A DNA stretch of 64,000 bases from Cymbomonas tetramitiformis. Lineage: Eukaryota > Chlorophyta > Pyramimonadophyceae > Pyramimonadales > Pyramimonadaceae. The stretch lies in the NCBI GenBank assembly GCA_001247695.2, contig LGRX02035486.1:26973-90972 (forward strand), written 5' to 3'. The notes beneath the pieces are model-generated. The model saw only the letters and a list, made by a program, of their open reading frames with translations, did not search any database and was not told the origin of the DNA. Positions 4,401-25,373 of this stretch are shown here, piece by piece (the first letter of the stretch is position 1; each line of letters opens with the position of its first letter). Both the position numbers and the translations under genes were made by a program.

Positions 4401-7400
4401 CATACTGTTGGGCATCTTCGGTCTTCAGCCCTCGGCAGAACCTGGAGCAGCAGCCCGTGAATGGCCTTTTGCACAATCTGAATACTCTCACAGAACGCAC
4501 TGCGCAAACCAATAGCCAGCCCCGGCCTCACACCACGGCATCACAGGCCGCAAGGCTCACCCTTACTACGCTGGGTGCGTCAATGAGCCGTCCCTGGGCT
4601 CATCTCTCCACCAGGGTGTATGTGCTATCCGTCGGGACAAGGGGCGCAGATAGATTTCTGCAGGTACTACATACCGCGGTGCAGAATGTGGCCTGGCCGA
4701 CGGTGGCCGCCTTTTTTATGATGTACTCCTTCTCCTCTCGGCTCTGGCTCTCCTTCAGGACATTCTTGGTTGCCACCCGCCTGGAGTAATTGGACTGCAT
4801 GAACTCTTCGAGCCACAAGGCATCCTTGAAGAGAGTGATGACAGCTCGCCCACCCGCCACTACCTTCCTTACCTGTAGGGAAGGGGGTTGGCAGCAGGGC
4901 TACATCCCCTGAATATGAACTACAAACTTCCTGTATCTGAGTGCGTGGCAGGTCAGAGGGAAACGCCTCATTGGAAAAGGTTAGTATTTAGCGAACAGCA
5001 CACAGCGGAGGGTACTCACATGTATAAGCCCAGTGACCATCAATTGACTTGCTTTGCCTCCATGGTGTGTACAAGAAAATAAATGGTGAAACTGATTAGG
5101 AGATTGGGAGAGCGGATCAACGCGCCTCCTCGATGATAGCTTGGAAGAAGGCGTCTTTGGAGGCCTCGACGATGATGGGATTTGTTTGGGACTGATCGAG
5201 GAATCTAAAATTGCTCTGGCCATAAACCGAAGGCATGCGGGTATAAATGTGGATGGCGTATTGGTTTAGAATCTGCCACTCGTGCACCCCGAGGGCCTCC
5301 ACAGTGCCTGACACCCCGAGGATCAACGCAGGTGTTACGCTTGCGTAAGAGAACTGACCGCAGGGCACTCTGAGCTGGAGCGCCTTCGCCAGTGTGGTCT
5401 CCGGGTTCCGAAGGGTGCCCTTAGAGGCTTCGCTGAGATAGGCAAAGGCAGTGCGGTAGCCCCACACGACATCATAGTTGATCCCGTCCATCTCCTGGAG
5501 AAAAGGAAACAATGAGCACCCCTCTTCAAAATAGGGGGTGAATATATGCCTCAATACATACATGCTATTGCATCCAACAAAATGTTCCGCACGCGGAAGC
5601 GGAGGCAAACTGCCCTCTTTTGTAGAAATGGAATTGGAGGCCTGTTGATTCGGACATCCTCTGCCAAGAATTATATTGTTGCGCTCCGCAGTGTGCTGTG
5701 ACCATGATCTTAGGAGCTCTCTCTGCTTTATCCGAGCATAATACAGTTTTGAGGCCTTCCGAGTATGTCAGGCCTCAGACTACCGTCCTCTAAACCGTTG
5801 AGGGGTCCGGGAAATCTTAGTAGAACTACCACGCATAGCGTTATTTGATGTAATTTATTCTTGTACGAGATGTTTGCAAACAGGCGCACAGAAAAAACTG
5901 TCAAAATCGGGGACTCCAAATCGAAGCAAAAGCAACGATGAGGGGTGATCAATTAAGTCCCACCTTGTACCCAATGCGGTTGTGGGTGGTGTCGAAGTGA
6001 TATGCCGGGGTGCTGAACTGCTTCAAGTCGCTGCACATGCATGCGAGCTCCTTTTCAAGCAGGAAGTGCCACTGCGGGAACTGTCTCAGCAGCGCAAGGT
6101 ACGCTGGCAGCTTTTGCGCAGCTCGCAGCACCTCCCTGGGCCTCCCGGCCTGGCCGCGCAGCTCCCAGATCGCGCGCAGAATGGCCGACACCTTTGGCTC
6201 TTCGAGACATGCAACCTGGTTGTGGCACTTTCCGTAGAAGTTCTGTCCGAAGAACACGTCAACCTCGTCCACGAGAAGGACCTCCTCCCCTTGGCCAGGG
6301 CTTGGAGGCGCCACGTCGGTCTTCACGGTTCGTGCGAGGCAATGCGACCCCCCCGCGGAGGAGTTCTCAGCTTTAACCGGGTCGCGGGTCAGAGGCTGAA
6401 TGGAAGCGTTGCATGCGCTGGAGGGGATTTGACGTCGACCAGCCGGGTTGTCACAGGTACGTGCACAGCCACCTTCGCTGTCATTGGTGGAAGAGGTGGC
6501 AGTAGGTGTGTGCATAAGCTCGAGGGTCATGTTGCGCAGGTTACCCTTGGCAGCAACGGCGTCCTCGCTGTAGGCCGTGATCTTGCTGTACGTGACATAG
6601 CCAGTTACCCCGAATGCATAGAAGAGGTCCTGGAAGAGGTCTCGGTCTCGGTCGCTGAGGTACTCTGAGTAGCACACGCACCGGACGCGCAGCCCGAGCA
6701 GCCCGAGCAGCAGCGCGCATACACCCAGGATGATGGACTTGCCCTCACCCGTACGAATCTGCATCAGCTGATTCACCAGGGCTGGGTCATCCGTGCCCAA
6801 GCCCATCAGCTGCAGGATGGTGAGGACCTGGATGTTGTGTGGCTTCAGAAGCACGCTGCTATGGCTTCTTGGAGCTTCGTCACCGCTGCGGTCGCTACAA
6901 CTCTGCAGCGCGAGAGGGCCGCCAGCCAGCGCGGCATCTGAGAGGCGCGTGAAGCTGTCACCTGATTTGGAGATGGTGAAGTAGGCGAAGACGCCACCAA
7001 GGAGCCCTGGCACCGCAGCCTTGACCTCTCGGGACCACTGGCGGACGCAGCATGGACGAAGCTTCGAAGCCTTATCCACCACTTTCTGCGCAATCTCGTC
7101 CAGTTGCAGCTTCCCGACGCGCCACATGCTGAAGCACTCATCATACTCTGCTTCATAGGTCTCAAAGCCAGACCGCAGCCTCGCCTGTCCGATAGTAATG
7201 TCTTGGGCAGAGTCTGGAGATGTTTTCCCCACCATCAGCTTGCTGGTCACCTCTGCCAAGGTGGCATCAACCGATTTTTGCGTCACTTCTTCGTTCCACT
7301 GCAGAGTCACCACGTCCTTAAAGTGCCTAAAGGTGTTCACAAGCACGTGCCCGATGCGCTGGTCTTCGGATGACACTGCCTCCCCGCTCGGGTCCCTCGC

Positions 7401-10400
7401 CCCAAATATCCCCCGCTCCAGCCCCATGCCGAGCTGGAACAAGTAGTGGAAGCCCCACGGGAGAGCCTGGCAAGCATCCAGCACGTTCTCAAGGTTCAGC
7501 ATGGCCATGTCCTTGAACCGCGGAAGATCGTCCACGATGTATCCCAGGTGAATCAGCTGCATTGCCACATTGGTTATGTTTTCCTCCGCGTGTGCCTGGC
7601 TCCTGAGGAAGCCCCGGGTCTTCCCCGCCAGCGCCACGATCTCCTTCTCCACGCTCTCGGCAACTTGTGCAATGCGCTGGCGCCACCCGTCCGACCAGAG
7701 GTCATCGAAGGCGCTCAGCTGCAGTTCCATCTGTGCAAGCGCCCCGAAGGCCTCATGCACCTTCTTCAGCTCGCGCCGCTCCCAGCTGACTCTCACACTG
7801 GCTCCGATTCCGCGAGCATGTTCCTTCACAGCCTCGTGGACTGCTTGCCTTACGCGATCCACGTCAAATGGGGATGTCACCAATTCGCACAGCCGGTGTA
7901 AGTCCGCCAGCCCAGAGAGCAGTGCCTTGATGCGGTCATATGCCTGATCATCAAGAAGCTGGGCCGCGCGGTCCTTCAGCATCCGTGGAACTTGGCTGAT
8001 CCGTGAGGTGAACAGCCGTGCCAGCTCATCCGGGTACCGGGAGCGAATATCTCCACTCAGCAACGCCTCCTTGGCGCGCTCCACCTGCTGTTGCTTCGCA
8101 GTAGATCCTCCAGGACGGTCAGGGTGGTATACCATACACTTGCAATGGTACGCCTTCTTGCACCCCGCCTCGTGGGTGCAGGGAGGCACCTCGAGCACCG
8201 CGAAGTGGATTCCCAGCTCGGCCAGCCTCTCCCCACCAAAGTGCGCATTCCGGAGCGCAATGACGCGCTGGAACTCGCGGTCGTCTGTCAAATCGGCTCC
8301 GATATCTTCACAGTAGACCGCGAGCTCGCTGGAAAGAAACTGTCCGACGCCGCGCAAAGTGCTCACTGACGCCGAGGCGGCTTCGAAGTCGAACTCGTCC
8401 TGTAACTGTGACTCTAGCCGCTTCACCCGGGCCTCGAGGGCGCAGCACATCTCCCCGTGCAGGTGAGCACAGCGCTGCTTCACCCCGGGATGGCTGAGGG
8501 TCAGCCCAAGCACCAGGCTGTGGAACCGTGAGAAGAGCACCCGTGTCTCATCAATGCGGTTGCGGCCAAGCTCCAGCACGAGGTCAGCAGCAAGCTGGGA
8601 CAACCGCTGAGCAATCTGCGTGCACACCATCTCGGCGTCGGCATCATCATGTAGGTGGCTGCCAAGTTGCTGCAGAATGCATTTCAGGGCGCGCCCCAGC
8701 GCCCCTGTTGGGCCGTAATTATGTTTTGCCATATGACAACGCGCCTCCTCGACCATCCCAGAGACCCGCTTCTGAAGCTTCTCCCGCAGACGATCGTATT
8801 CCGATGTGTAGAATGGCAGTTTGTGTAGAAGGGCGCTCACGGGCCTGGAGCTTTCGGACCTCAGTGCATTCAGCTGCCGGACCCAGCGTGCAAGCTGCTC
8901 GTGATGCATAAGATACTTGCCGTACTCCTTCATCACCTTCGCGTCACTTGCCCGGAGCTCTTTCAGTTCTTGCAGGAGGTCTACGCCTCCCAGCTGTGGC
9001 ACATGCTCCTTCAGGCCCTTGTCCCACTCCCGCTTCCAGTGCTCGAACACCTCGACTGCTAAGGTAAAGATCTCACGCTCCTTCGCCACGTCGCGTATCT
9101 GGATCAATACTTTGCTCAGCTGATCTCTAAGACGGGCCCTGACCTCGTGGTAGTGCTCCTTCACCACCTGCTGGGCGGGACCGTGCGCCGCCGCCTTCAG
9201 ACTGCGCAGCGCAGTAAAGAGCCGTGGGGATGCAGAGCGGTCTTGCAACTCTGAGGTGCTGTAATCAACATACTCTTTCAGCTCACGGTCTAGCTGCTTC
9301 AAGCTGCACTCAGCACGAGATATGACTGCACTCGCACGCTGCTTGTCGTGGGAGTTGAGCAAGCCCGCGACATCCGCGTGGTACCCCTTCGCGCTGGAGA
9401 GTTTGACAAAAAGGACTGGATAGCTCGATGCCACTTCTGGATAGCTCCCTGCCAACTCGAGATTCGAAAGCAGCCCCTGAAAATGCTCGGCCACGCAGGC
9501 CTCGAGCATCTGCACTTGGTCTGCGAGGGCCACTGATGGCGTGTGCTGCTTCAGCGTCTCGCCAAGCTTGCCGAGCTCGTCCCTTGCCTTCTTCAACAGT
9601 GCAATCGCTGTCACTATCTCTGCGCCAGACGCTATCTGCGCATGAGCTGCGGAGATCTTCGCCTGCACGCTCGATGCGAGCAACCCCATGATGCGGGTAA
9701 AGCGCTGCCTGCTCAGGTTATCCTGTGACTCCGCAAGAGGCTCGAGGAGCTCCCTGATCCCCGCAAACTCGAACGCTTCTATGTTCTTCTGGACCTCCTC
9801 GTCCACCCGCGCCCGTTTGATTTCCAGCATGCTAGTTAGATAGTCCAAGTCCCTGCTGGCCTGATGCTTGAGGTGCGCATCGAGCACGCGTGCCATGGCA
9901 AATTTCTCCAGGCGTGCCTCCACTTCCTCCCAGTTGTCCGTGTCACCAAGTTGCTTGCGGATTGCATCTGCCTCTTGCGACAGCTCCGTCTGCAAGGCGC
10001 CGCACAGTTCATTGTAACTGGGAAGCCCTTTCACCAGACTGAAGAGCGAGCGCTGTTGCTCCCACTTCCAAATCGCGTCCAGCACCGTTTGCTTTGTGCT
10101 GTAACTCCCTTGGGCACGCGCAAGCTCCAGGACCGCGGTGCGGTAGCGCTGCATAATTCCATGCAGCTTGCCACACAGTGCCTGCACATCGGCTGCCCTC
10201 GGCTGGACTTGCGTCAGCCCCTCGCAGGTGGCCAGGGCCGCATCCACGACTGCTGCCTGTGCATCGCTTAGCTCGGAGAGATCTTCCGGAGCCGTCTCAA
10301 GCCACAGCTGCTGCCGCGCACACCACTGCATGATGAATTGCTCCACACCGTTGTTGAAGGCTACCCACGCCTCGGGAAGGCAGAAGCGTGGCAGGTGCTC

Positions 10401-13400
10401 AAGCTCGGATAGCTTGGGCTTCAGAGCCTCAAGCTCGGCGGCACACACTGCGGGGTTCTCTAGAAACCTCGTCAACCCCTGCAGCAGCTCGATCCCGGTC
10501 GCCAGGAAGTATTCGAAGTAGCGCGCGGCGAATGCACGGAGGCCCTCGGCAACAAAGCCGCGGCCTGGCGGGAGGAAGCCATCCAACCAGGCGAACCTTG
10601 CAAGGGTGATCAGTAGGGGCAGATGCCTCTCGGGGGAACCTAGCCCACCCCCTGCCATCATCTCGCGGTGAAGCAAATCGAGCTGCGAGACTCGTTCCTG
10701 AACCGTCTTCATCAGCAAATCGCAGGCATCCGTGAAGATGTTCTGGCCCATCGGATCCCTCTGCTGTCGGTCAGTCCGCGCATCGAGCCATCCCCGGAGC
10801 CTCTGCATGCGCATCTCCAGGGATGCCTCCAGGCCCCCCTCTAGGATTGCGGCCTTCACTGGATTCGCCTCCCGGAGCAGCTCGCTATTTGCCTCCATGA
10901 GCACCATGTGCCAGCTGTCACGCGCCAGCACTGCGAGGTGGGTAGGCACCATGGCACCATCCAGCGCATCAAGAAATGCCTCAAGTCTCTTTACGCAGGC
11001 CACGAAGACGCGAATGCGCACGGCAAGTTTGGCGAGGTCAAGACTCAGTGCTGCTCCCCGCTCCCCATGGAGCACCGTCTCCTGCATCTCAGACCTGTGG
11101 ATGGCCAGAGTTGCCCGAGGTCCGGTCCAGTCTACGTCCTCAAAGTTGACCTCCCCTTGCAACGCGGCTCGAGCAGTCTCGACATCTGTTTTCATGACAT
11201 GCTCCACCTGGGACAACGGGATCCTTTTGAATCTCAGCACCATGAACAGTCCTTGCTCATCTTCGGAGTGTGGAGCGAAGAGCGCCCGAAGGATCTGCCA
11301 CCACGTCAGGCAACTCACAACACGAGCTTGCTTAGTGTCCAATCACGGGACAATGACACAAAATCCAAACATTTCGGCATTTGAGGGACATGCCTACAAC
11401 ATTTAATCGTCACGGCTCCACCAACTGCCTGTCATCCAAAAATCAGAAGATCGGAGGCGGCTTTGGGCGTGGTACGCCCCCTTCACATTTCCCACAAGGG
11501 ACCTGGCGCCGCTTAACTCGGGGCACACACAACAAGGCGAGTTGGTGCACATGCCAGCTTGGCCATACACTGTATGAAAGCGTATCTTCATGACTTGACT
11601 GGCAAAGCACCGGATCAGGCACGCCGAGCATCAGCAATGCTCTCGGGAAGAAATCTACGACTTCGTGAAATGCTGCAGTGGCAGTGCATTCCATCCGGCA
11701 TGCTCACCTGTGCTGCCACCCCTTCCCAGGCCGCCTCCACGCCATTGGTGGTGATCCCAACCTCGCGCAGTTGAGGCAGCACGTTATGCACCTCTTGTAC
11801 ACACTCCATGGCGTCCACCATCACCGCCGCATCGCAAGGGCATCCCACTGTCGACCTGGCGACGACCCCTGCAACATACTGGTCAAGTGCCACAGCGGCG
11901 GAGGCGGCAAGATGCTGCCAGCTACACTCAACTGCACCCCAGGCGAGCAGCTTCGAGAGCACACGGAGGTGGGCCTGCAGGTCGGGCCTCTCGGTGCCTC
12001 CCTTCAGAGCTCCTTGCAGCGCTTTCGACATCTGAGCTAGGCGTTGGTACACATGCGCGAGCATCTCATCCGGCGCAGCTCTCTCCCCGTCAACAGCGCT
12101 GCCAAGCCCAAGCCCCTCGAGCACCCGCACCGAATGGAGCAGGTGCAGTACAATGCGTGCGCTGGCCTCTCCGAACTCCCCAGCGTCGGGCACCGTCCCG
12201 ATGTTGATTAGGCGGGAGGCGTCCTCCCGGGCCTGCCAAGCGGCCTCATTCACGAGCTCGGTGGCCTCGGAGTGCGCCTCCCGCACAGAATCCAGCTCGA
12301 GGTGCCGGCGTAGGTACCCAAGCGCCTGCGCCAGCTCGCCAATCTGCTCTGGATGCCCTGCTTGCAGCGCCATCCTCAGTGCGCTCAGCATCCGCCGGAG
12401 TTCGATGGCAACGGCGCTAGCATTTGCGGCTGTTATCCCGCAGCGCACCACGTCCCGCGCAGCCGCGCCCACGGTTGCCCCTATTGCAGCCGCGGAGCCG
12501 TCAGGCAAGGGAGCGAACAGCTCCAAGTTATCTCTGATGAGCCTCGAAACATCGGTGAGCTCCGGGTGAAACACATCGACGAATGGGAAGCCTTTCTTCA
12601 AACAGTGCTCCAACCACTTCAGGATCCCGCCCGCAATCCGGTCGCGCTTGTCGGTGCCGTTCAGGGTGTCCACCACTAACCCGTGCAGCGTTTTTCGGGC
12701 GTGCTGTAACTCGGCGGAGGGGCCCCACGGCACTGCCGCGCCGTCAGAGGCATCTGCATCGCTACTCACCAGATTCCTGAGGATGCCCGGGTGTGAGAAC
12801 AGGAACGTGAATGCGAGCTGGTGCTGTTTGAACTGCTCTGGCTGATGAGCGCCCACAAGCGTGGACACCAGCTTCACCAGATTACGGATTGCACCGCCCT
12901 TACACTCGAGGAATGAAGCACAGCTGACAAGCACCACGAAGCGGAGACTGCGGCACACGGCGGCTACCTGCTGGATCGAGATTGAGGTGGCTATATCCAC
13001 TTCCATCCCTGCTGTGTCCTCGTACCCCGCTGAATCGAGATAGACCACCGCTTCCTCGTCCTCAGGGTCGTTGCTACCCCCAGAAGTACGCAGATAGTGA
13101 CTGATATGCTTGGTCTGCGATTGCTGATCATGTCCAATGCAGAACCCTTCCAGTGGTTCGATGGCTTCGAATACCTCTTTGACTGCACCGTTGTATACTG
13201 ACTGGTACGAGCGACGCTGCAGCTTCCGCCCTGCAATGGCCTGCACCAGAGTTGACTTGCCAGAGCCAGTCTTACCAAGCAAGATCACGACGCGCTTCCC
13301 CACGGCATGCTGCAATGCCGGCTCCGCAGCTGCAACCAGCGTTCCCAGCAGCTTGAGATCCAAAAGTGGTGTCCATGAGGTGACAGATGAGAGATCATTG

Positions 13401-13441
13401 TCGGCATTGGTGTCGTCGTCGTCGTCAGATATGTCGTACAT
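1005..13441 (-). CDS. Gene A: P-loop / J-domain / SecA-type motor / vWA fusion protein (9 exons)
   Basis: Minus-strand spliced gene. Proposed exons in coding order: 13441-11708, 11294 (or 11330)-5964, 5494-5126, 4872-4675, 4345-4291, 3923-3844, 3715-3473, 2738-2426, 1411-1005. All junction phases agree and give about 2,910 residues. Domains in order: a P-loop NTPase with GKTGSGKST (about residues 55-64) and a DSAG switch-like motif (about 135); a very long helical region; a J domain with the HPD tripeptide (about 1630); a SecA-like DEAD motor with Walker A RTGEGKSII (about 2090), DEVD (about 2255), then FGRGTDF and GRTARQG; and a vWA domain with DATGSMG as a variant MIDAS (about 2700). Bacterial SecA is an ATP-driven preprotein translocase motor of about 800-900 residues. 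Related SecA-like domains are known inside large eukaryotic proteins of unknown role. Introns exclude bacterial contamination. Start chosen at the first ATG of the first long exon; an upstream non-coding exon is possible. Function is unknown; a chaperone-assisted, ATP-driven remodelling role is inference. Confidence 0.85.
1921..1945. repeat. (AC)n microsatellite in gene A intron
   Basis: About 11 AC units in the intron between the two vWA exons. Confidence 0.8.
2426..2738 (-). CDS. Gene A exon 8: vWA domain, MIDAS half
   Basis: Acceptor GTGCAATAG|GCG. Encodes CRMMCLSDATGSMGPIWDST, a vWA first strand with DATGS in place of DxSxS, as in alpha-kinase-associated vWA proteins. Followed by a helix and a WVAYRDYSD strand. 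Donor AGTG|GTGAGC in phase 1. Confidence 0.85.
3473..3715 (-). CDS. Gene A exon 7: end of SecA-like motor
   Basis: 81 codons. Acceptor CTCCTGCAG|GGT joins exon 6 to give GRTARQGKQGTYAMVLLEDD, as in SecA. The rest is charged and helical. Donor CCAG|GTATGC, phase 0. Confidence 0.85.
3844..3923 (-). CDS. Gene A exon 6: SecA motif VI exon
   Basis: 80-nt exon. Acceptor ATGCAG, donor CAG|GTAATT. Encodes GMHVIQTFVSMEKSEEVQ, then IQGRTARQ. This is nearly identical to the diagnostic SecA motif VI region (GGxHVIQTF, SEExQIxGRTARQ). Confidence 0.9.
4291..4345 (-). CDS. Gene A exon 5: SecA motif V micro-exon
   Basis: 55-nt exon between GGCCAG|GTG and GCAG|GTGGGT. It encodes VFGRGTDFFCVDRKLQEA, the SecA helicase motif V region. 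Ends in phase 1, which the next exon completes exactly to give AGGMHVIQTF. Confidence 0.85.
4675..4872 (-). CDS. Gene A exon 4: SecA-like second helicase domain
   Basis: 66 codons. Acceptor CCCTACAG|GTA; donor GCG|GTATGT. The peptide GGRAVITLFKDALWLEEF, followed by ATVGQATFCTA, matches the SecA segment leading into the GRGTD motif. Confidence 0.8.
5126..5494 (-). CDS. Gene A exon 3: SecA-like motor, middle part
   Basis: Acceptor TTTTCTCCAG|GAG is very good. The peptide begins EMDGINYDVVWGYRTAF and includes ILGVSGTVEALGVHEW, matching the SecA segment around the conserved GMTGT motif. The best end is a GC donor, GAGGAG|GCGCGT. It keeps phase 0 and reads across into VRKVVAGGRAVI as in SecA proteins; the GT two bases further on would break the frame. 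Confidence 0.75.
5964..11294 (-). CDS. Gene A exon 2: long helical region, J domain, SecA DEAD core
   Basis: About 1,777 uninterrupted codons. The acceptor is either CAG|ATC (exon start 11294) or AAG|CAA (11330); both keep phase 0. The first two thirds are Leu/Ala/Glu/Arg-rich and helical. Around 8090-8210 lies a J domain: a VLEV helix start, the KKAYHCKCMVYHPDRPGG loop with HPD, and a following helix ending SRYPDE. J domains stimulate Hsp70 ATPases. Around 6732-6758 is QIRTGEGKSIILG, the SecA/DEAD Walker A, and around 6253-6279 LLVDEVDVFFG, equivalent to SecA DEVD. The exon ends GYK|GTGGGA. Confidence 0.85.
11708..13441 (-). CDS. Gene A exon 1: N-terminal P-loop NTPase domain
   Basis: 578 codons opening with MYDISDDDDDTN, an acidic N-terminus. 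GKTGSGKST (about 13247-13280) is a Walker A/G1 motif, and YLDSAGYEDT (about 13030) fits a G3/Walker B-type segment, so a GTPase-like fold (AIG1/dynamin-like range) is likely. The rest is Ala/Leu-rich and predicted helical. Ends at a strong donor, CAG|GTGAGC, at 11707. Phase 0. Confidence 0.8.
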
Positions 13442-16929: not shown

Positions 16930-16934
16930 TCAAT
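16930..16934. repeat. Target-site duplication TCAAT, left copy
   Basis: Matches TCAAT at 25369-25373 on the other side of the gypsy element. Confidence 0.85.
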
Positions 16935-17619
16935 TGTGCCAGGGGCACGACGACAGATGCTCGGAGATATGTTTTTGATTGAACGTGCAAAGGTACACAA
17001 TTCGGATTTTTATAATATACTGGATCAGGGCCAGATTGAGGTACAAACGATAATTCGGTTCCGAGTTCTGAAGGCTAAACACTTCTCAAGTGCTCTACTT
17101 ATTCACTCGTCACTCAGGTTGCAGGGTCAACCACTCGAGAGCCGATGTCACACTTCGGCTCAACGTTCAGTTCCCGATCCGATCTCATTTCTAATTCCGA
17201 TTCGTCATTCTCGATTCAGATGTTATGCCAACAGGCTGACACGATGACTGCCCCACAGTACTGTCATACTACTGTACTGTCATACTGTCATAGCGTCATA
17301 CTGTCATACTGTCATAACCTTAATATCTGATATTCGATTTCATTGTCTTTTCAACCCCGATGCGAATCTGACCATTCTTCGAGGGTCTGACTGAGTTCCA
17401 CGATGACACCCCCCACAGTACTGTCATACTACTATAGTGTCATACTGTCATACTGTCATAGTGTCATAGTGTCATACTGTCATACCCCGGACATCTGGTA
17501 TTCATTCTCATCGTGATTTCAAGCCCAATCTCACTGTCATCGTGCCAATCCCAGATTACCCCCGATGACACACATACGGACGCATAGACATATCGGCTCA
17601 CGCTGTGCCTCCGGGCACA
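16935..17619 (-). repeat. Left (3') LTR of the gypsy element, 685 bp
   Basis: Starts TGTGCC, ends GGCACA. Contains two arrays of an 8-9-bp unit (GTCATACT/GTCATAGT) around 17261-17320 and 17418-17485. Differs from the right LTR by a handful of substitutions, a 1-bp indel and array copy number. Confidence 0.93.
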
Positions 17620-17634
17620 ACTCTCCCCCCCTTA
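17620..17634 (-). promoter_or_regulatory. Polypurine tract of the gypsy element
   Basis: A purine-rich run on the element sense strand immediately upstream of the 3' LTR; it is the expected plus-strand primer site for reverse transcription. Confidence 0.75.
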
Positions 17635-17807
17635 GGAGTGGTCTACCTCCTGGGATCACTCCGCTAAGGTACCCATCTAAGTTCCAGTTCTTAGGTTCTC
17701 TGGTTCCTTGCTGTTTCCAGTTCTTAGGTTCTCTGGTTCCTCTTCGAGCATAGTTCGCCTGCCGCTACCAGGGCACCACTTTCAAGAAGAAGGGTGCCAC
17801 TTGGAAT

Positions 17808-20800
17808 CTAAAGCGGGTCTTCAGTGTCGCGGAGGCGTAAATGTCGGAAAAGTTGTCGTAGCAGTAGTGCTGGTACGGGGTATACACTCGCAGATTGACC
17901 TGCTCCAGTCTGCTGCGGGTGAGGTCCAAGCTGAGCAGTCTCTGGGTGAGCACCGGTTGCCCATCTGCACGCACACGGTGTCGAAGTAGTACAGCGTAGC
18001 AGGGGCGAGGGTGGTGCTGAGTTCGTCCATATGCAGGTGGGTTTCATGTACTGCGTACCATACATGCAGTAGGTACACACCAGCGGTGGGGGAAGCTGGC
18101 GCATCATAGGGCGAAGCCGTAGCGCGTTAGGAAAGCGACCTCTGGGGTTTTCCATGAACCAATGTTTTGGCTCTAGGTAGTCAATGATCTGCAATGCTCG
18201 TCGTACGATTTTGTCAGCCTGGGGAAGGTCAGGGGGTCCACCAGTGGTGCGCGCTTGACTGTACTGCCTGCAGGGGGGACTTGCCCAAATAACATCGAAG
18301 AATCCAGGCGGGTATTGCCTGTAGTCCCATTGTAGGATGTCACACACATGAGTGGGTTGCCAGATATGCCCGGAGTCGAGGGTCACCACTGAGGCGGAGG
18401 GGAAGCAATTTAGGAATTCCCTCTCTACTGAGCCAGTACCGCTGAAAAGTACGAGAATCCTGGGCGTGCGGGTTGTTTTTGCCTGTATTGCCAGCAGCTC
18501 TGTCACCAGTGCCAACGACCCATCTTCCACGCGCTCCTGGCGTTCCCACGGCAGGGGGATATCATCTTCCATCTGTTCGAGCTGGTCCAGTTCATCGCAG
18601 GGATTGGTGATGAGGTGGGCCAGTGTCATTCCGGCTTGAGCGGAGTGGCGGCCACGCTGCTCGCGTCGCCGAGTGGCTTCGTCGCGGACTTGCGCTTCCA
18701 TGTGCAGTCTCGCTTGCTCGAATTCACGAAGTTGTTGAAGTGGACTTCCGCGTTCAAGTTTGTCACGCGTTCTCCATTGGTCGTGAGCTTTGGAGTAGCC
18801 AGTCCAGCGAACCTTCCACTCTTCCACCTCCTTTCCTCGAACAGACCGCACTCGACGTGCAAGGATACGCTCAACGTGTGCTTCCTTCTGACCGTCCACT
18901 ACCACCTCTTCAGGTACTGCTAGGTGATCGCGTGCGGCAAAAGCATCTTGACCGTTGGTGTACGGTTTGAGGCGATGTTGAGCGAACACGTCGTGAATCC
19001 GCCAGTGAGGAGGGAGGCGTAGGCGGTAGGCTACTGGAGCTCCTCTGTCGGCTTCGGGCATGGTCATCTGTATATCGCTGAAGAAGCGTTCGGTCACAGG
19101 AACTGGTCCATGCCAGCGCTTGGTCAGTTTCCTACAGATGGAGCGATCCATCACCTTCTCCGTAAGGTGCTTCGCCTCTATCCAGACCAGATCTCCAACA
19201 GCATACTCCCGCTGCCCGTGTCTGCGATCAAACTGTTCGCGCTGTCGCTGTTGAGCCAGCTCCAACCGCTGTCTGGCGTCCCGCAGCTGCGACGAAAATT
19301 TCACGGCCACTTCGTGTGCGGTGCCTACTCCCCCTGTTCGTCGTCCAGCGGTGGACTGTGCGGCCTCCAGGAAAAGGTCCAACTGCGACAGCGGCGAGAA
19401 CCCGAACACCAGTTCAAACGGCGTGAAGCCAGTAGATTCACTCCTGGAGTCATTGATCGCGAACTCCACGTTAGTGGTGAACAGATCCCAGTCCTCCACA
19501 TTGGCGTCAACAAAGGACCTGAGCATGTCCTCAATAACCCTGTTGCTGTGTTCCGCCTGGCCGTCAGACCGAGGGTTGTACGGCGTGGTGCGAGCCACTT
19601 TCACACCCATCAGTCTCATGAGTTCCTGCCAGAAAGCATCTTGAAACCGCGGGTCACGATCAGAGACAATCTTCATAGGCGCGCCATGTAAGCGCCACAC
19701 CGAGTCAAAGTAGATTCTGGCCACCACAGCTGCAGAGCTGTCGCCGAAGTTCATTGGCACAACGTGGACCATCTTCGTCAGCTTGCAGGTGAAGGCCACG
19801 AAAGCATCATTGCCCCTCTCCGATACCGGCAGGCCGGTGACGAAGTCCACCGCGACATCCTGCCATGGCCTGTTCGGGATGCTGTGAGGGTTTAGCAACC
19901 CATCCGGGTAAGTTCCCCGCGGTCTCACTGATTGGCACACTGCGCAGGATGCAACCCAGGTGCCCACATCTTCCGCGGCACCACGCCAATAGAAGCGTCG
20001 CAGCACCCTCTCCAGAGTCTTGTCTCGCCCAGTATGGCCCGAGGACAATGACTCATGAGCATGGCGAATCACTACCTCTCGAAGTGGAGAGTCCTCCCCC
20101 AGCACCAACTGATATCTCCCAGCTGCGGTCCTCCAAACCACTTCACCCACCAGTCTGAAGTCCTGTAGGCATTGGTGTGGTGCCGCCTTCACTTTCTCCC
20201 GCAGCGAACGAAGTGTCCCCTCTCGGGTGTACTCCGCCTTCAACGCACGCAGGAACTTTGAGTCCGACTGCTGGGAGGATGCGTCTCTGAAGGCTGCTGC
20301 CTCACCTGTCCTTATCACAGCGGGGGCCGTTCGCGGGTGCCTCACGCGTGCCGGCTGTGGTTTGGCGGGAGGGGCGTGTACTATCAGAACAGGCCAACGA
20401 AGGTCGAAGGCCTTCCCATCTGGGTTCTCGAAGAACTGATTGGGCTCGCCCTTATCATCGTGAGTAGGGATGACCTCCACGATCTGCATATTGGCCTTTC
20501 TGAAAAGTTTGCGCCACGCGGGGAGTTTGGACTGGTGATCTGGTAGGACGAAGACTGCTGAGGTGTTTTCTGGGTCTGCCTTCCATTCTGCGATATACTT
20601 GTTCAAAATCGCCTCCACCGTAATGTGCTTGGAGTTATATGGAGGGTTACACCAAACCCGAAGGCCCCTCCATTTCTCTGAAAGGCAGTCTGTCCAGAAT
20701 CTATCCGCCTGTCTGTTGCGGCCGCCAAAGTCACAACAGGCGTCCACATCGAAGGGTCCAAACTTCTCGGCGTACTTCGAGGAGTACTCTGCTCGGACAC

Positions 20801-23800
20801 GCCAATTCTGTGAGTCTTCGGGGGGAGTTTGCCGTTTTTGCGGGTGAAGGACCGGGGATGGAGCTGACTGCTGGGGCGCCTGCTGCGGGGATGGTGAGCT
20901 CACTGGCACCTTCTCAGTGGGCGCCTCCAATGCATCAGCTCGTGATGGCGTTCGCGTCTTCGGTGACGCCAACTGTGGAGGCGCTGGGGTCGTAGGGGCT
21001 CTTCCAGCGCGTGACATGCTCCTCGTTATCCTTATCTGAGGTGGAGCTCTGTCAGGGGGTTGGTGTGGAGCTTCTGTCGGCTTCGCGCTATCAGCTTCAG
21101 GCCAGTCAGGCATGTCGAAGTCGAGGTGATCCTCCTTCATTCCCTTATAGAGCTTCGGATTAACGAGAGCGATGGTCTCCCCCATGTCCATGGCCTGCTC
21201 TGCCACGGAGAGGGTTTCCACTGCTGAGAGCCAACAGTCAATTGTCTGGGCCCAGTGAGGATGAGCCGCGGGTGGTGAGCTGGAGAAGCATTCAGACTCC
21301 AGCGTTGCCAGAGGGTCTTTCGGCAGGTCTGAGGGGGGGTCGATCACTCCTGCCTCCTTCAACCCCTCGCGAACGTCCTTGTCTTTGAAGTCGGGTCTTC
21401 TGGACAGGGCGTCTGGTACCAGCAGCAGCGCTCCCTTGATGTACTCCATTCTCGGGACTCCCACCTCCACCAGATCCATGTACCAGCGTGCCTGTCTGCG
21501 GCTAAGCTCTCTGCCAGGTTCCATCAGCCATTCAAGGGGACGGTGATCACCCTGGATGCGGAAGTTGGTGAAGATGAGGTAATGCCGCCAGGTGACGGTG
21601 GTACAGTGGTGTAGAGCACCTAGCTCACGCTCGCCGGTGTGGTAATTCTGCTCGGCGGCTGAGAACTGTCGGCTCTCGTATGCTATCACGCGCAGCCCAA
21701 GACCATCTCCATTGTCTTGCATAAGTACTCCCCCAAGAGCGATGCCGCTAGCATCCGTCTGCACCACGAAAGGCGCCGTGCCGTCTGCGGCACCCTTAAT
21801 GTTGGGCAAGGCGAGCACTGGCGCTGATGTGAGGGCCTTCTTCAGCTCCTCGAAGGCCCACTGCTGCATGGGACCCCACTCCCAGGGTACGTCCGACTTG
21901 GTCAACCGGGTGAGGGGCTGAGCGATCTCGGAGAAGCAGTGGATGAACCTGCGGTAATACCCCGCTAGGCCCAAGAACTGCCTGACGTGGGTAACCGTCT
22001 CCAGCTCGGGCCAGTCCCTCACTGCAGCCACCTTGTCGTGTTGGGGTCTGCAGCCATCTGCGGAGATACAGTGGCCAAGGAACCGCAAGGATTTCTTCAA
22101 CAGTTGGCACTTGGACCTCTTGAGGAAGACGCCCTTCTCCCTGCATGTCAGGAGCAGTTGTTTGACGTGCTCGTAGTGCTCTGCAGCGGTGTTGCTGAAG
22201 ACGACCACATCATCTATGAAGATCCGGACAAATGGAAGATGGCCCAAGGCCCGCTGCATCCGTCGCTGGTACTGAGATGGTGAATTCTGCAGCCCCTGCG
22301 GCATGACCAACCACTCATATGACCCCATTTGGGTGGTGAAGGCGGTCTTCTCGACATCTCCTGGTGCCATCGGTACTTGCCAGAAGCCATCCACCGCGTC
22401 GAACGAAGAGAAGAACTTCGCACCCTGCATCTCGTCGAACATCATCTGGATGTCTGGGAGAGGATACTTGTCCTTAACTGTCTGGCGGTTGAGGAGCCGA
22501 TAATCGATCACCAGTCGCAGCTCCTTGGGGTTCCCGGGTTTAGGGACCATCAAACAGGGAGCTGCATAAGGACTGGAAGAGGGTCGGATGTAGCCCTTGG
22601 ACATCAGAGTCTCCACGCGTTCTCGAAGTTGGTGGAGTTCCTCTGCGGACTTCTTGTAGATGCGCTGGCAGGGAGGTCCCTTCTTGCTCAGCTCAGGGTC
22701 CAGGTTAATGTTGGCTTCATCTTGGGGGTCATGTCTGAGTCCATCGATGTTCGGTAGAGCAGTCGTCATCTCCTTCTTGTACTCCTCTCCCCAGAAGTCC
22801 TGAAACTTGAGGGTCCACTCAGGGCTCACTTCTGCATCTTCAGTATCCGCAGCGGGTTCGGCGTTCTCAGAGTCGATAGCCGTGGCCGCAAAGGCAGAAG
22901 CAGTATCGTCGGGGGACTTCTCGGCCACCATGAGCCAGGCGGGCTGTATCTCCGGGTCGTCATTGCCGCGTAGTTTCTGCGTCTCCGCATACACCAGGTA
23001 CTTCTTCAGCTGGGCAGGGGTCAGGAACACCTCATCCACCAATCCCGCGCAGGCCGTACCCTTCGGAGACCTGTCCCCAGATGCTTTCCCAGGAGAACAG
23101 CCTGTGATGGTGACGCGATCCCCAATCTTGCCACTGCGGGACTTCCTGAGGAAGGAGACGGAGCCATTCCCTTCATAGCCCAAAGTGACAGGAGAGTGAC
23201 TGCGCAGCCACCTTCCACCGAGGATAACATCCACCTGTATGCCCAGTGGCAGGATCCGGAGGGCAAGGGCGTTCTCCGTATAGGTGCCCGTGGTGGTGTG
23301 CGTGTTAAACTTGGCGTACGCGGTGGCGCCAGTGATCTTCACAGATCCATCCGCCAGGGTGACTCGCATCTCGGAGCCGGCTCGTGTTGTGAGGCCACAT
23401 CGCTTAGCGCCCTGCTCCGAGATGAAGTTGTCAGAGGCCCCCGAGTTAATCAGCACCTTGACCGTGTGCCCTCTGAGGGTTGCGTAGAATACCAGCAGTA
23501 GCGGTCCTTCTTCGTCATGTGCCGCTGCAAGGGTACCCTCGATGTCGGTCTTCCACCGAACTCCCCCATCTGTGCGTATGCTTTTGCACTTGAGGTTGGG
23601 GAGGAGGTTGTCCGAGGCCTCGCGGCATTCTTCCAACGTTTGCCTACACGCGGCGTAGAACTCCTCATCCAGCAAATCAACATCTTCAGGCGGATGACTG
23701 ACGAGGTTGTCTGCACTCGCCGTCAGCAGGGTGCCCGCTGAGGTGCATTCGCTCGAGGTGGGGCTGACATGAGTGGTGTCGCTGGTGGTAGGGCTCACAT

Positions 23801-24663
23801 GGGTGGTGTCACTGGTAGTAGGGCTCACATGTGTAGTGCCACTGGTGGTAGGGCTAACATGGGTAGTGCCGCTTACTGTGGGGCTCACGTGGGTAGTGCC
23901 GCTTGTTGTGGGGCTCACATGGGTAGCGACACTATTGGTGAGACCGCCATGGGTGAGAGGATCCTCGTCATGCTGAGGGCTGCCAGCAGGGGAGTTGTGG
24001 GCGAGCTGGTGGGAGCTCTGGTGGTCAGTTCTCGTCTGAGGGGTCCCAGCTGCTGCCATCTGCTGGGTGAAGCAGAGCGAGTTGACCGAGGACTCCTCTT
24101 CCATCACCTCAGGGTCTTCAGCGATGGGGTGGCTGTCGAGACAGGGTGGCGCTTCATCCACTTCATGCGTTTTGACGGTGGTCATCTGCTGGGTGAAGCA
24201 AAGCGAACTGGGTGCGGAGGTCTCCTCCGCCTCTGAGCAGTAGGATGAACCTTCGGGGTTTCCTCCCGGAGTGGCCGGCGCGTTATCATGGTGCGAAGAT
24301 GTAGTCTCTGTTGTGGGCTCGGCCAGCGAGGATGATGGAGGGGATGCTCCCAAGGGGCTGGGACCCAGCTTCCTCATCTTGTACTGGTGTACTGCGTGCA
24401 GACTGCACCAGGCGCCAGGTAAACCCACATCTCCCGCTGTCCCAGGCATCGTGCCCACTTCAGTGTCCAGGGTGCAGAGGGATGTCGAAGACCTCGCTGC
24501 TGCCCTTCGTGCGCCCTCCTTTTCCCACAGCCTGCTACCTGGGGAAGAGTCTGGACTCGAAGTGGCGATTGCCTTTTGCTGCTCGGCAGGCGACAGCTCT
24601 CTCCAAGCCGCGTAGAGGTCGTGGGAGCTGGTGTTAGAGGATTCGGGGACTTGCTGGCGACCG
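17808..24663 (-). CDS. Gypsy polyprotein: PR-RT-RH-adenine MTase-IN-chromo-cytosine MTase
   Basis: About 2,285 codons open from the N gap to a stop at 17808; the true start is hidden. The first part is low-complexity and has six copies of a ten-residue THVSPTTSGT repeat and two SLCFTQQM segments; no CCHC knuckle or capsid is recognised. Protease: LINSGASDNF (23424-23458), with Asn where the catalytic Asp should be. RT: from about 22700, with FSSFDAVDGFWQV and FIDDVVVF (about 22198-22222) as the YxDD-type catalytic box. RNase H: QTDASG near 21755. Adenine methyltransferase-like domain near 20370-20815. Integrase: HHCC (about 20070-19932) and DDE near 19840, 19660 and 19550. Chromodomain at 18745-18890. 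Cytosine methyltransferase-like domain at the C-terminus. Processing is presumed to yield separate proteins; linkers rich in Pro and Ser separate the added domains. Confidence 0.93.
17900..18475 (-). other. Cytosine-C5 DNA methyltransferase-like domain at the polyprotein C-terminus
   Basis: Starts PRILVLFSGTGSVEREF (motif I, SAM binding), then FDVIWASPPCRQYSQAR (motif IV with the catalytic Cys), then WFMENPRGRF (motif VI ENP). It ends with a Cys/His-containing tail (YCMYGTQYMKPTCIWTN onward). Motifs VIII-X of canonical Dcm/DNMT enzymes are not obvious, so this is the compact type seen in phages. Follows the chromodomain after a helical linker. Confidence 0.8.
20370..20815 (-). other. N6-adenine DNA methyltransferase-like domain in the gypsy polyprotein
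   Basis: The segment runs EKFGPFDVDACCDFGG, then GLRVWCNPPYNSKHI, then AVFVLPDHQSK. NPPY is the catalytic motif IV of amino-methyltransferases (D/N-P-P-Y/W). The order and spacing recall the phage-type Dam family, where a D-x-C-A-type N-terminal motif precedes W(x)nNPPY. It lies between the Pro-rich linker after RNase H and the integrase zinc-binding domain. Family assignment is from motif recognition, not a search. Confidence 0.75.
23770..23950. repeat. 30-bp coding minisatellite in the gypsy ORF
   Basis: About six 30-bp units encoding THVSPTTSGT/D on the minus strand, in frame, upstream of the protease. Confidence 0.85.
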
Positions 24664-24683
24664 NNNNNNNNNNNNNNNNNNNN
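24664..24683. other. Assembly gap (20 N)
   Basis: Lies exactly at the junction of the 5' LTR and the polyprotein. The true length is unknown; primer-binding site, leader and possibly gag may be missing here. Confidence 0.95.
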
Positions 24684-25368
24684 ACGACAGATGCTCGGGA
24701 ATATGTTTTTGATTGAACGTGCAAAGGTACACAATTCGGATTTTATAATATACTGGATCAGGGCCAGATTGAGGTACAAACGATAATTCGGTTCCGAGTT
24801 CTGAAGGCTAAACACTTCTCAAGTGCTCTACTTATTCACTCGTCACTCAGGTTGCAGGGTCAACCACTCGAGAGCCGATGTCACACTTCGGCTCAACGTT
24901 CAATTCCCGATCCGATCTCATTTCTAATTCCGATTCGTCATTCTCGATTCAGATGTTATGCCAACAGACTGACACGATGACTGCCCCACAGTACTGTCAT
25001 ACTACTGTACTGTCATACTGTCATACTGTCATAGCGTCATACTGTCATACTGTCATAACCTTAATATCTGATATTCGATTTCATTGTCTTTTCAACCCCG
25101 ATGCGAATCTGACCATTCTTCGAGGGTCTGACTGAGTTCCACGATGACACCCCCCACAGTACTGTCATACTACTATAGTGTCATACTGTCATACTGTCAT
25201 AGTGTCATAGTGTCATAGTGTCATAGTGTCATACCCCGGACATCTGGTATTCATTCTCATCGTGATTTCAAGCCCAATCTCACTGTCATCGTGCCAATCC
25301 CAGATTACCCCCGATGACACACATACGGACGCATGGACATATCGGCTCACGCTGTGCCTCCGGGCACA
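24669..25368 (-). repeat. Right (5') LTR of the gypsy element, about 700 bp
   Basis: Same ends and arrays as the left LTR; the first bases are inside the N gap. Because it is the 5' LTR, it should carry the element promoter and transcription start; no TATA box is pinpointed. Confidence 0.9.
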
Positions 25369-25373
25369 TCAAT
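25369..25373. repeat. Target-site duplication TCAAT, right copy
   Basis: Directly follows the GGCACA end of the right LTR. Confidence 0.85.

Follow-up and report, generated by a model that had tools for sequence, protein, structure and literature searches.

A chromodomain-bearing Ty3/gypsy retrotransposon of Cymbomonas tetramitiformis with Dam-type and C5-type methyltransferase domains in Pol

Results

Domain architecture and class of the element

In the 64,000 nucleotides of a Cymbomonas tetramitiformis contig analysed here (the window), the minus strand carries a long terminal repeat (LTR) retrotransposon at positions 16935-25368, flanked by a 5-bp target-site duplication. Sequence comparisons, structure models and trees make it almost certain that this is a chromodomain-bearing Ty3/gypsy element, and that its Pol contains both a Dam-type N6-adenine methyltransferase domain and a compact, phage-type C5-cytosine methyltransferase domain. 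A first-pass annotation, made from the letters of the DNA alone, had proposed this combination, and it is borne out by profiles, by structure models and by further copies that are under purifying selection. The domain order that it had given is also correct: according to Pfam, Pol consists of protease, reverse transcriptase (RT), RNase H, the Dam-type domain, integrase, chromodomain and the C5 domain (Table 1).

The LTRs, direct repeats of ~685 bp with TG...CA ends, the short target-site duplication, and the order of protease, RT, RNase H and integrase, with the Dam-type domain inserted between the latter two, are those of a Ty3/gypsy element. The chromodomain behind the integrase, which PF00385 matches over the cut-off, is a chromovirus trait. 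Pol does not have the composition expected for a DIRS element, as it contains a protease and a DDE integrase, and no recombinase match was found with Pfam.

The domains had been described as part of one uninterrupted frame. There is indeed no stop codon between 17808 and 24815, but a run of 20 Ns (24664-24683) lies inside this frame, and its part above the run is LTR sequence. As the LTR lies directly above the Ns, this copy lacks Gag and the beginning of Pol. The position of the tRNA primer-binding site also falls inside the gap, and the upstream stretch of L022, the one retrieved for this purpose, ends short of a 5' LTR. The gag/pol junction is seen in 20 other genomic copies (L002-L021), in which Gag and Pol are in the same frame and are separated by a single in-frame TGA with an identical 27-base context (20/20). 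This codon is located at about position 740-757 in element orientation (about 630 in L011). In translated L006, the frame upstream of the TGA ends a Gag with a CCHC knuckle, recognized by reading and not by profile. The pol frame spans 2524-2537 amino acids in 19/20 of these copies, while L008 has an internal TAG. Since Gag and Pol share a frame and are split by one TGA in a conserved context, Gag-Pol is probably made by readthrough of the stop codon.

Table 1. Features of the retrotransposon copy in the window
Feature	Position	Strand	Evidence or remark
Target-site duplication	16930..16934	.	TCAAT (+ strand letters)
3' LTR	16935..17619	-	TGTGCC...GGCACA; repeat search and BLAST
Purine-rich stretch adjoining 3' LTR, probable polypurine tract	17620..17633	-	read directly; function inferred
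pol reading frame	17808..24663	-	without stop codon
Compact C5-cytosine methyltransferase domain	17811..18482	-	FSGTGS, SPPC, ENP, KPTCIWT; PF00145, phrog_757, structure model
Chromodomain	18717..18878	-	PF00385 E 1.2e-6, over cut-off
Integrase (H2C2 zinc domain, catalytic core, Tf2-1-like SH3)	18966..20108	-	PF17921 E 5.8e-17; PF00665 (rve) E 6.5e-5, below cut-off; PF24626 (SH3_Tf2-1) E 5.5e-8
Dam-type N6-adenine methyltransferase domain	20346..20831	-	CNPPY at residue 1389; PF05869, phrog_111, structure model
RNase H	21468..21779	-	PF17917 E 8e-27, PF17919 E 7.1e-25
Reverse transcriptase	22071..22547	-	PF00078 (RVT_1) E 1.7e-31; FIDD motif at residue 866
Aspartic protease domain	23181..23498	-	PF13650 E 2.3e-8, PF13975 E 5.5e-8
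20-N run (assembly gap)	24664..24683	.	takes out Gag, gag/pol junction and start of Pol
5' LTR	24684..25368	-	final 15 bp missing via gap; direct repeat and BLAST against 3' LTR
Target-site duplication	25369..25373	.	TCAAT (+ strand letters)

The two methyltransferase domains

The Dam-type domain is matched by PF05869 both in the whole protein (E 2e-7, 31.3 bits) and in the segment alone (36.2 bits; cut-off 28.1), as are 20/20 aligned members. Among the PHROGs profiles, phrog_111, a DNA methyltransferase, is matched at E 1.1e-13; the match to TIGR01712 is far under the equivalog cut-off (25.1 vs 97 bits). The structure model (pLDDT 87.2) matches mostly N6-adenine methyltransferases, with PCIF1/CAPAM in the best VIA rows, followed by KsgA, Erm and adenine DNA methyltransferases. 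A tblastn search of phages with the adenine segment gave no match at 1e-5; the version of the domain from L026, one of the DIRS-like loci described below, did match phage enzymes.

For the C5 domain, PF00145 (DNA_methylase) is matched by the segment alone with 25.1 bits (E 1.4e-5; cut-off 22) and by 61/66 aligned members at E 0.01, and phrog_757, again a DNA methyltransferase profile, is matched at E 6.2e-17. The C5 motifs I (FSGTG), IV (PPC) and VI (ENP) are present. The structure model (pLDDT 92.6) matches DNMT3A/3B, which rank at the top, M.HhaI and DNMT1. The profile matches over the cut-offs (for PF00145, with the segment alone) and the confident models with methyltransferase folds agree with the first-pass annotation for both domains.

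Searches of the PDB by sequence were weak, one returning DNMT1-named chains at E about 0.5 and the other unrelated proteins. Viral contigs yielded relatives when scanned with alignments, but none when scanned with single sequences. The relatives of the C5 domain found by sequence are mostly short stand-alone proteins, the nearest of them from metagenomes, in addition to phage-type profiles. Phage records contain relatives of one stand-alone protein (P0120), which are 28-35% identical to it among the matches listed. By its sequence, the C5 domain resembles compact phage-type enzymes, and a Dnmt3 ancestry is not favoured; DNMT3A/3B nonetheless come first by fold, and the C5 tree was built without Dnmt3 rows. 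A compact C5-like domain is also present at the C-terminus of P0042, a metagenomic copia-type protein of 1575 amino acids (PF07727 over the cut-off), with PF00145 at E 0.0016, below the cut-off, and IPC replacing PPC. This suggests a further capture of a C5 domain by a retroelement.

Abundance and motif conservation

The genome assembly searched comprises 851.7 Mb; the published genome size is 850 Mb-1.2 Gb (PMC5741210). Only the best candidates were scored (21/34527 for the polyprotein, 150/7257 for the Dam domain and 150/8320 for the C5 domain), and the counts are thus lower bounds for copies selected for likeness. The polyprotein search gave at least 21 genomic matches across residues 5-2291, 20 of them without internal stop. 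All 150 scored Dam loci are over the cut-off, and all 150 scored C5 matches are stop-free, with 99-100% identity. The element family is large and recently amplified.

The CNPP[YF] motif is found in 21/21 genomic copies, and the five motifs that were checked are all intact in 20/21 of these near-identical copies, the ENP pattern being absent from L016. Among 29 related polyproteins, CNPP[YF] is present in 24, SPPC in 20, both in 18 and all five motifs in 13. In P0003-P0005, P0007, P0015, P0016, P0022-P0027 and others, which stem from automatic gene prediction or from short contigs, the ends may be wrong, and missing C5 motifs are no proof of loss. P0003-P0005 are C. tetramitiformis proteins with 92-98% identity over about 90% of the query. 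The most distant relatives, P0028 (39% identity) and P0029 (37% identity), retain all five motifs. These two proteins have a match to a PHD finger (PF00628), no listed chromodomain and both methyltransferases, perhaps reflecting a swap of chromatin readers.

A second subfamily has 17 stop-free matches in the genome over nearly the whole polyprotein. It is 72% like P0018, which in turn is 49% like the window protein over residues 1300-2335. The motifs of both methyltransferase domains are kept in 7/7 copies of this subfamily that were read in part.

In a genome search with PF00145, 123/6837 candidates were scored. About 20 of the matches are long or strong, with scores of up to 228 bits; some 100 others are short (41-48 bits), mostly cover profile positions 57-126 and often lie within long open frames. 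The longer C5-methyltransferase matches, for example G000:C23365:8880-9803 and C169:37107-38228, may be host or viral genes.

Selection on the domains

Among the 21 copies, the ratio of nonsynonymous to synonymous differences per site (pN/pS) is 0.04 for Dam, 0.13 for C5, 0.03 for RT, integrase and protease, 0.00 for RNase H, 0.07 for the chromodomain and 0.28 for the linker before Dam. The linker serves as the control, because picking copies by protein score lowers pN in all domains. Despite this selection of copies, the domains remain set apart from the linker, and the adenine domain is under a constraint similar to that on RT and integrase. For the P0018 copy and the second subfamily, a pair not chosen for Dam likeness, pN is 0.06 and pS 0.89 over 141 Dam codons. 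When the window family is compared with the second subfamily, pS is saturated (0.83-0.94), and pN is 0.36 for Dam, 0.35 for C5 and 0.32 for RT. Summed pairwise synonymous and nonsynonymous differences in the second subfamily are 52/53 for linker plus Dam, 16/22 for C5 and 34/12 for RT; this is too little variation, and taken at face value the counts indicate a weaker constraint on C5 than on RT.

Over longer distances, the window element was compared with ten relatives, taken from 11/29 related polyproteins that were considered. For these 11 lineages, mean pairwise identity is 0.48 for Dam, 0.54 for C5, 0.64 for RT and integrase, 0.75 for RNase H, 0.50 for protease and 0.44 for the chromodomain; in three linkers it is 0.15, 0.39 and 0.20. 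In the pol, Dam and C5 trees of the same lineages, P0013/14 and P0001/06 group alike (support 82/87 to 100/100). P0018/19/20 also group in all three trees, yet with only 51/0 in the C5 tree, where P0021 joins them (98/96); this protein is placed elsewhere, weakly, in the pol and Dam trees. P0009/12 are found with P0001/06 in the pol and C5 trees (support of at least 97/96); the Dam tree, in which support is low, does not unite them. Broadly, the Dam and C5 trees follow the pol tree.

Alignment columns with no or almost no variation include the catalytic motifs; the Dam alignment that includes DIRS-like rows was made without the motif-losing relatives. Both methyltransferase domains are maintained by selection. 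The survey of other copies thus agrees with the first-pass annotation as far as purifying selection on both domains is concerned, but some subfamilies have lost the adenine motif. Decayed inserts are ruled out by purifying selection and motif conservation.

DIRS-like loci and the origin of the domains

Seven further Dam loci in the genome (L024-L029, L033) have no match to the RT, integrase or C5 domain of the element within about 1.5 kb. The scores of their Dam frames against PF05869 are 51-54 bits. RVT_1 is matched in or before the Dam frame in L027 (over the cut-off) and L026 (below it), and in a neighbouring frame in L024 (below it). A scan for recombinase-type domains, which covered L024-L028, gave weak matches of the phage-integrase/tyrosine-recombinase type downstream of Dam in L024, L026, L027 and L028, all below the cut-off, and none in L025; PHROGs matches were weak in L024 and L027 and absent in L028. 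No RNase H profile matched in these loci, and the RNase H part was read by eye. The loci are called DIRS-like because their arrangement matches that of DIRS elements in the part of PMC3783388 available to us.

Five of the DIRS-like Dam domains are 29-32% identical to that of the window element. In a tree that includes 21 viral Dam proteins (21/80 viral loci) and 5/7 DIRS-like loci, all 20 retroelement sequences lie on one side of a branch with support of 100/100, apart from the viral proteins. The best tree splits the Ty3 rows, but a single Ty3 clade is not rejected (p-AU 0.23). Because the Ty3 and DIRS-like Dam domains form one clade, an exchange between DIRS and Ty3/gypsy elements, in either direction, is the simplest reading. 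By these sequence comparisons the adenine domain is shared with DIRS-like elements, which corrects the first interpretation.

The C5 tree has 56 rows, namely the window element, 39 of the returned proteins and 16/80 viral loci, one of which contributes only 59 amino acids. It sets 15/16 viral sequences apart, and the rows labelled Ty3, eight of which are short fragments that need not belong to such elements, are on one side of a weakly supported branch (55/86).

The window copy and its surroundings

In BLAST, the LTRs of the window copy share 96% identity over 686 columns, with indels within internal repeats, and the 3' LTR is closer to the 3' LTR of L015 (99.6%) than to its own partner. In view of this difference, the gap may join pieces of two copies, despite the matching target-site duplication. 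Elsewhere in the window, a minus-strand open frame at 5949-11342 (1797 amino acids) matches SecA_DEAD over the cut-off and DnaJ below it, and another at 11615-13441 (minus strand, 608 amino acids) weakly matches P-loop NTPases, STAND and NACHT among them, in each case under the cut-off. No Pfam family was matched at 0.001 by ten further open reading frames in the window.

Discussion

Possible roles of the methyltransferase domains

As selection keeps both methyltransferase domains intact, the element probably modifies nucleic acid, with its own DNA copy as the likeliest target. Self-marking of DNA is known from phages, and we give about even odds (a probability near 0.5) to the reading that the element marks its own DNA copy with its methyltransferases. 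Both enzymes, being parts of Pol, would stay together with RT and integrase, and adenines and cytosines of newly made element DNA would be methylated before or during integration. The marked DNA copy may be safe from nucleases or from being sensed as foreign, and the mark may set the chromatin state at insertion sites that are partly chosen via the chromodomain. In a more specific version, which is put forward tentatively, N6-methyladenine (6mA) and 5-methylcytosine (5mC) would both be placed on the cDNA as in a restriction-evading phage, by one domain shared with DIRS elements and another of phage type, and the chromodomain would place the copy. Catalysis by both domains, action on cDNA, and protection or steering by the mark are what we infer from the sequences.

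Several observations weigh against self-marking. CNPP[YF] is absent from 5/29 relatives (P0008, P0012, P0017, P0024 and P0030), of which P0008 and P0012 retain the C5 motifs, and because of this loss adenine activity would appear to be dispensable in some lineages. In P0012, the loss goes with a long Dam branch (0.56 vs 0.09 in its sister P0009). PCIF1, the nearest solved fold to the adenine domain, acts on RNA caps, and plain Foldseek gave this domain a single match at E<=0.001, amid numerous methyltransferases of other types. The C5 domain, for its part, is short and has no evident target-recognition part. In the whole protein, PF00145 is slightly under the cut-off of 22 (20.9 bits, E 2.7e-4), and precomputed Pfam lists it in only 1/29 relatives (P0002). 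Finally, the mutational trace of CpG self-methylation is weak. Rare C>T/G>A variants are found at 39/549 CpG sites vs 101/1900 sites elsewhere, only 1.3 times as often. The observed/expected ratio of CpG is 0.73 in the element vs 0.81 and 0.89 in the flanks, but it is lower still (0.58-0.62) in three DIRS-like loci that showed no C5 domain. For two Ty3 loci from a different subfamily, the ratio is 0.80-0.81.

The losses of the adenine motif, the weak CpG trace and PCIF1 as the nearest solved fold make RNA a serious rival substrate, even if we consider it unlikely. The adenine domain would then methylate the transcript, for example near the cap as PCIF1 does, and the C5 domain would make m5C, in aid of translation, packaging or escape from RNA surveillance. 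Against this, the phage families that the two segments match by sequence are annotated as DNA methyltransferases, and the C5 fold is nearest to DNA enzymes, although fold likeness does not reveal the substrate.

Less probable again is an action on host chromatin at the target site. Together with the chromodomain, the enzymes would place or strengthen silent marks around the insertion, so that the host would suffer less harm and the element would be spared further control. The chromodomain directly precedes the C5 domain in Pol, P0028 and P0029 retain both methyltransferases next to a PHD finger match and no listed chromodomain, and the longer C5-methyltransferase matches in the genome make a methylation system to interact with plausible. 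The weak CpG mutation trace speaks against this explanation as well.

It is quite improbable that the two folds are hitchhikers or decoys, which would bind DNA or SAM, or act as spacers, without catalysis. Motif loss in 5/29 relatives, in which the surrounding domain sequence persists, would fit such a role, but the catalytic motifs occupy (nearly) invariant columns, and pN/pS of the adenine domain is near that of RT. An assembly or annotation artefact that joined unrelated genes to a retrotransposon, which the gap and the unequal LTR identities of the window copy (96% vs 99.6% to the L015 3' LTR) might suggest, is ruled out, since 20 other genomic copies show the same order without a gap, as do a diverged subfamily, which has its own intact copies, and proteins from other sources.

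Relation to known elements

Statements on published elements refer to the available parts of the cited texts. The capture of C5 methyltransferases by eukaryotic retrotransposons, which the first-pass annotation had mentioned, is published, with examples in LINE, DIRS and Gypsy elements (PMC5890265). In KnitGypsy-Dnmt3 of Klebsormidium nitens, an LTR element of the Gypsy type, Pol likewise contains a C5 domain in its frame, which is under purifying selection. This domain is a Dnmt3, however, and no adenine methyltransferase is described there, whereas the Cymbomonas element has a compact phage-like C5 domain plus Dam (PMC5890265). SymbioDIRS-Dnmt3 and SymbioLINE-Dnmt of dinoflagellates are also retrotransposons with C5 methyltransferases, and the SymbioDIRS-Dnmt3 type methylated CG in yeast; in contrast to the present element, they are a tyrosine recombinase DIRS and a LINE, with Dnmt3 or an orphan C5 enzyme and no Dam reported (PMC5890265). 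A 2025 DNMT survey has Dnmt3 in Copia and DIRS elements, and the word Cymbomonas does not occur in its text (PMC12344493).

Dam is known from DIRS elements, where the methyltransferase (PF05869) follows RT and RNase H as in Cymbomonas; these elements differ in having a tyrosine recombinase and neither protease nor DDE integrase, and a C5 domain is not mentioned (PMC3783388). A review lists DAM- and DCM-encoding Ty3/Gypsy and DIRS elements from groups including green algae, but names the two in different elements and no single element with both (PMC6338049). In a 2025 survey of 6mA, a text search found neither 'retrotransposon' nor 'DIRS' (PMC12695648). Ty3/gypsy elements of orchids have likewise captured an enzyme of nucleic-acid methylation, in that case an m6A RNA demethylase with a 2-ODD domain in a separate open reading frame (PMC9289625).

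Two reports concern Cymbomonas itself. A Chlamyvir-related chromovirus has been described from it, in a text from which 'methyl' is absent and which mentions no methyltransferase; nanopore reads of this alga are reported there as well (PMC10675990). Burns et al. found that Cymbomonas scaffolds with >10,000-fold coverage hold chromodomain, RNase H and cytosine DNA methyltransferase (PMC5741210). Very probably, these scaffolds are pieces of the present family; the homologies are given separately, and neither an element nor an adenine domain is described in the part available. The statement of the first-pass annotation that no element with both kinds of methyltransferase was known holds for the architecture, as our searches of open-access papers yielded none, with an earlier mention possible; the presence of a C5 enzyme among the most abundant repeats of this alga had already been noticed (PMC5741210). 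What is new is the architecture with two base-modifying domains in one element, and what was known is one kind per element.

Implications

Retrotransposons are usually targets of DNA methylation. Retroelements that carry methyltransferases are rare, and those described in the available texts have a single kind. Here, two unrelated methyltransferase domains are under selection in a young and abundant family, which opens three questions to experiment: why retroelements should write such marks, whether both enzymes act on cDNA, and whether algal 6mA can stem from a transposon. The subfamilies with an altered adenine site provide a natural comparison. The single Dam clade in DIRS-like and Ty3/gypsy elements points to an exchange of domains between retroelement classes. 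If the element does mark its own DNA at two bases, it would be, to our knowledge, the first retroelement to place two kinds of mark on DNA. The methylome of the host, whose genome it fills, could then bear its imprint.

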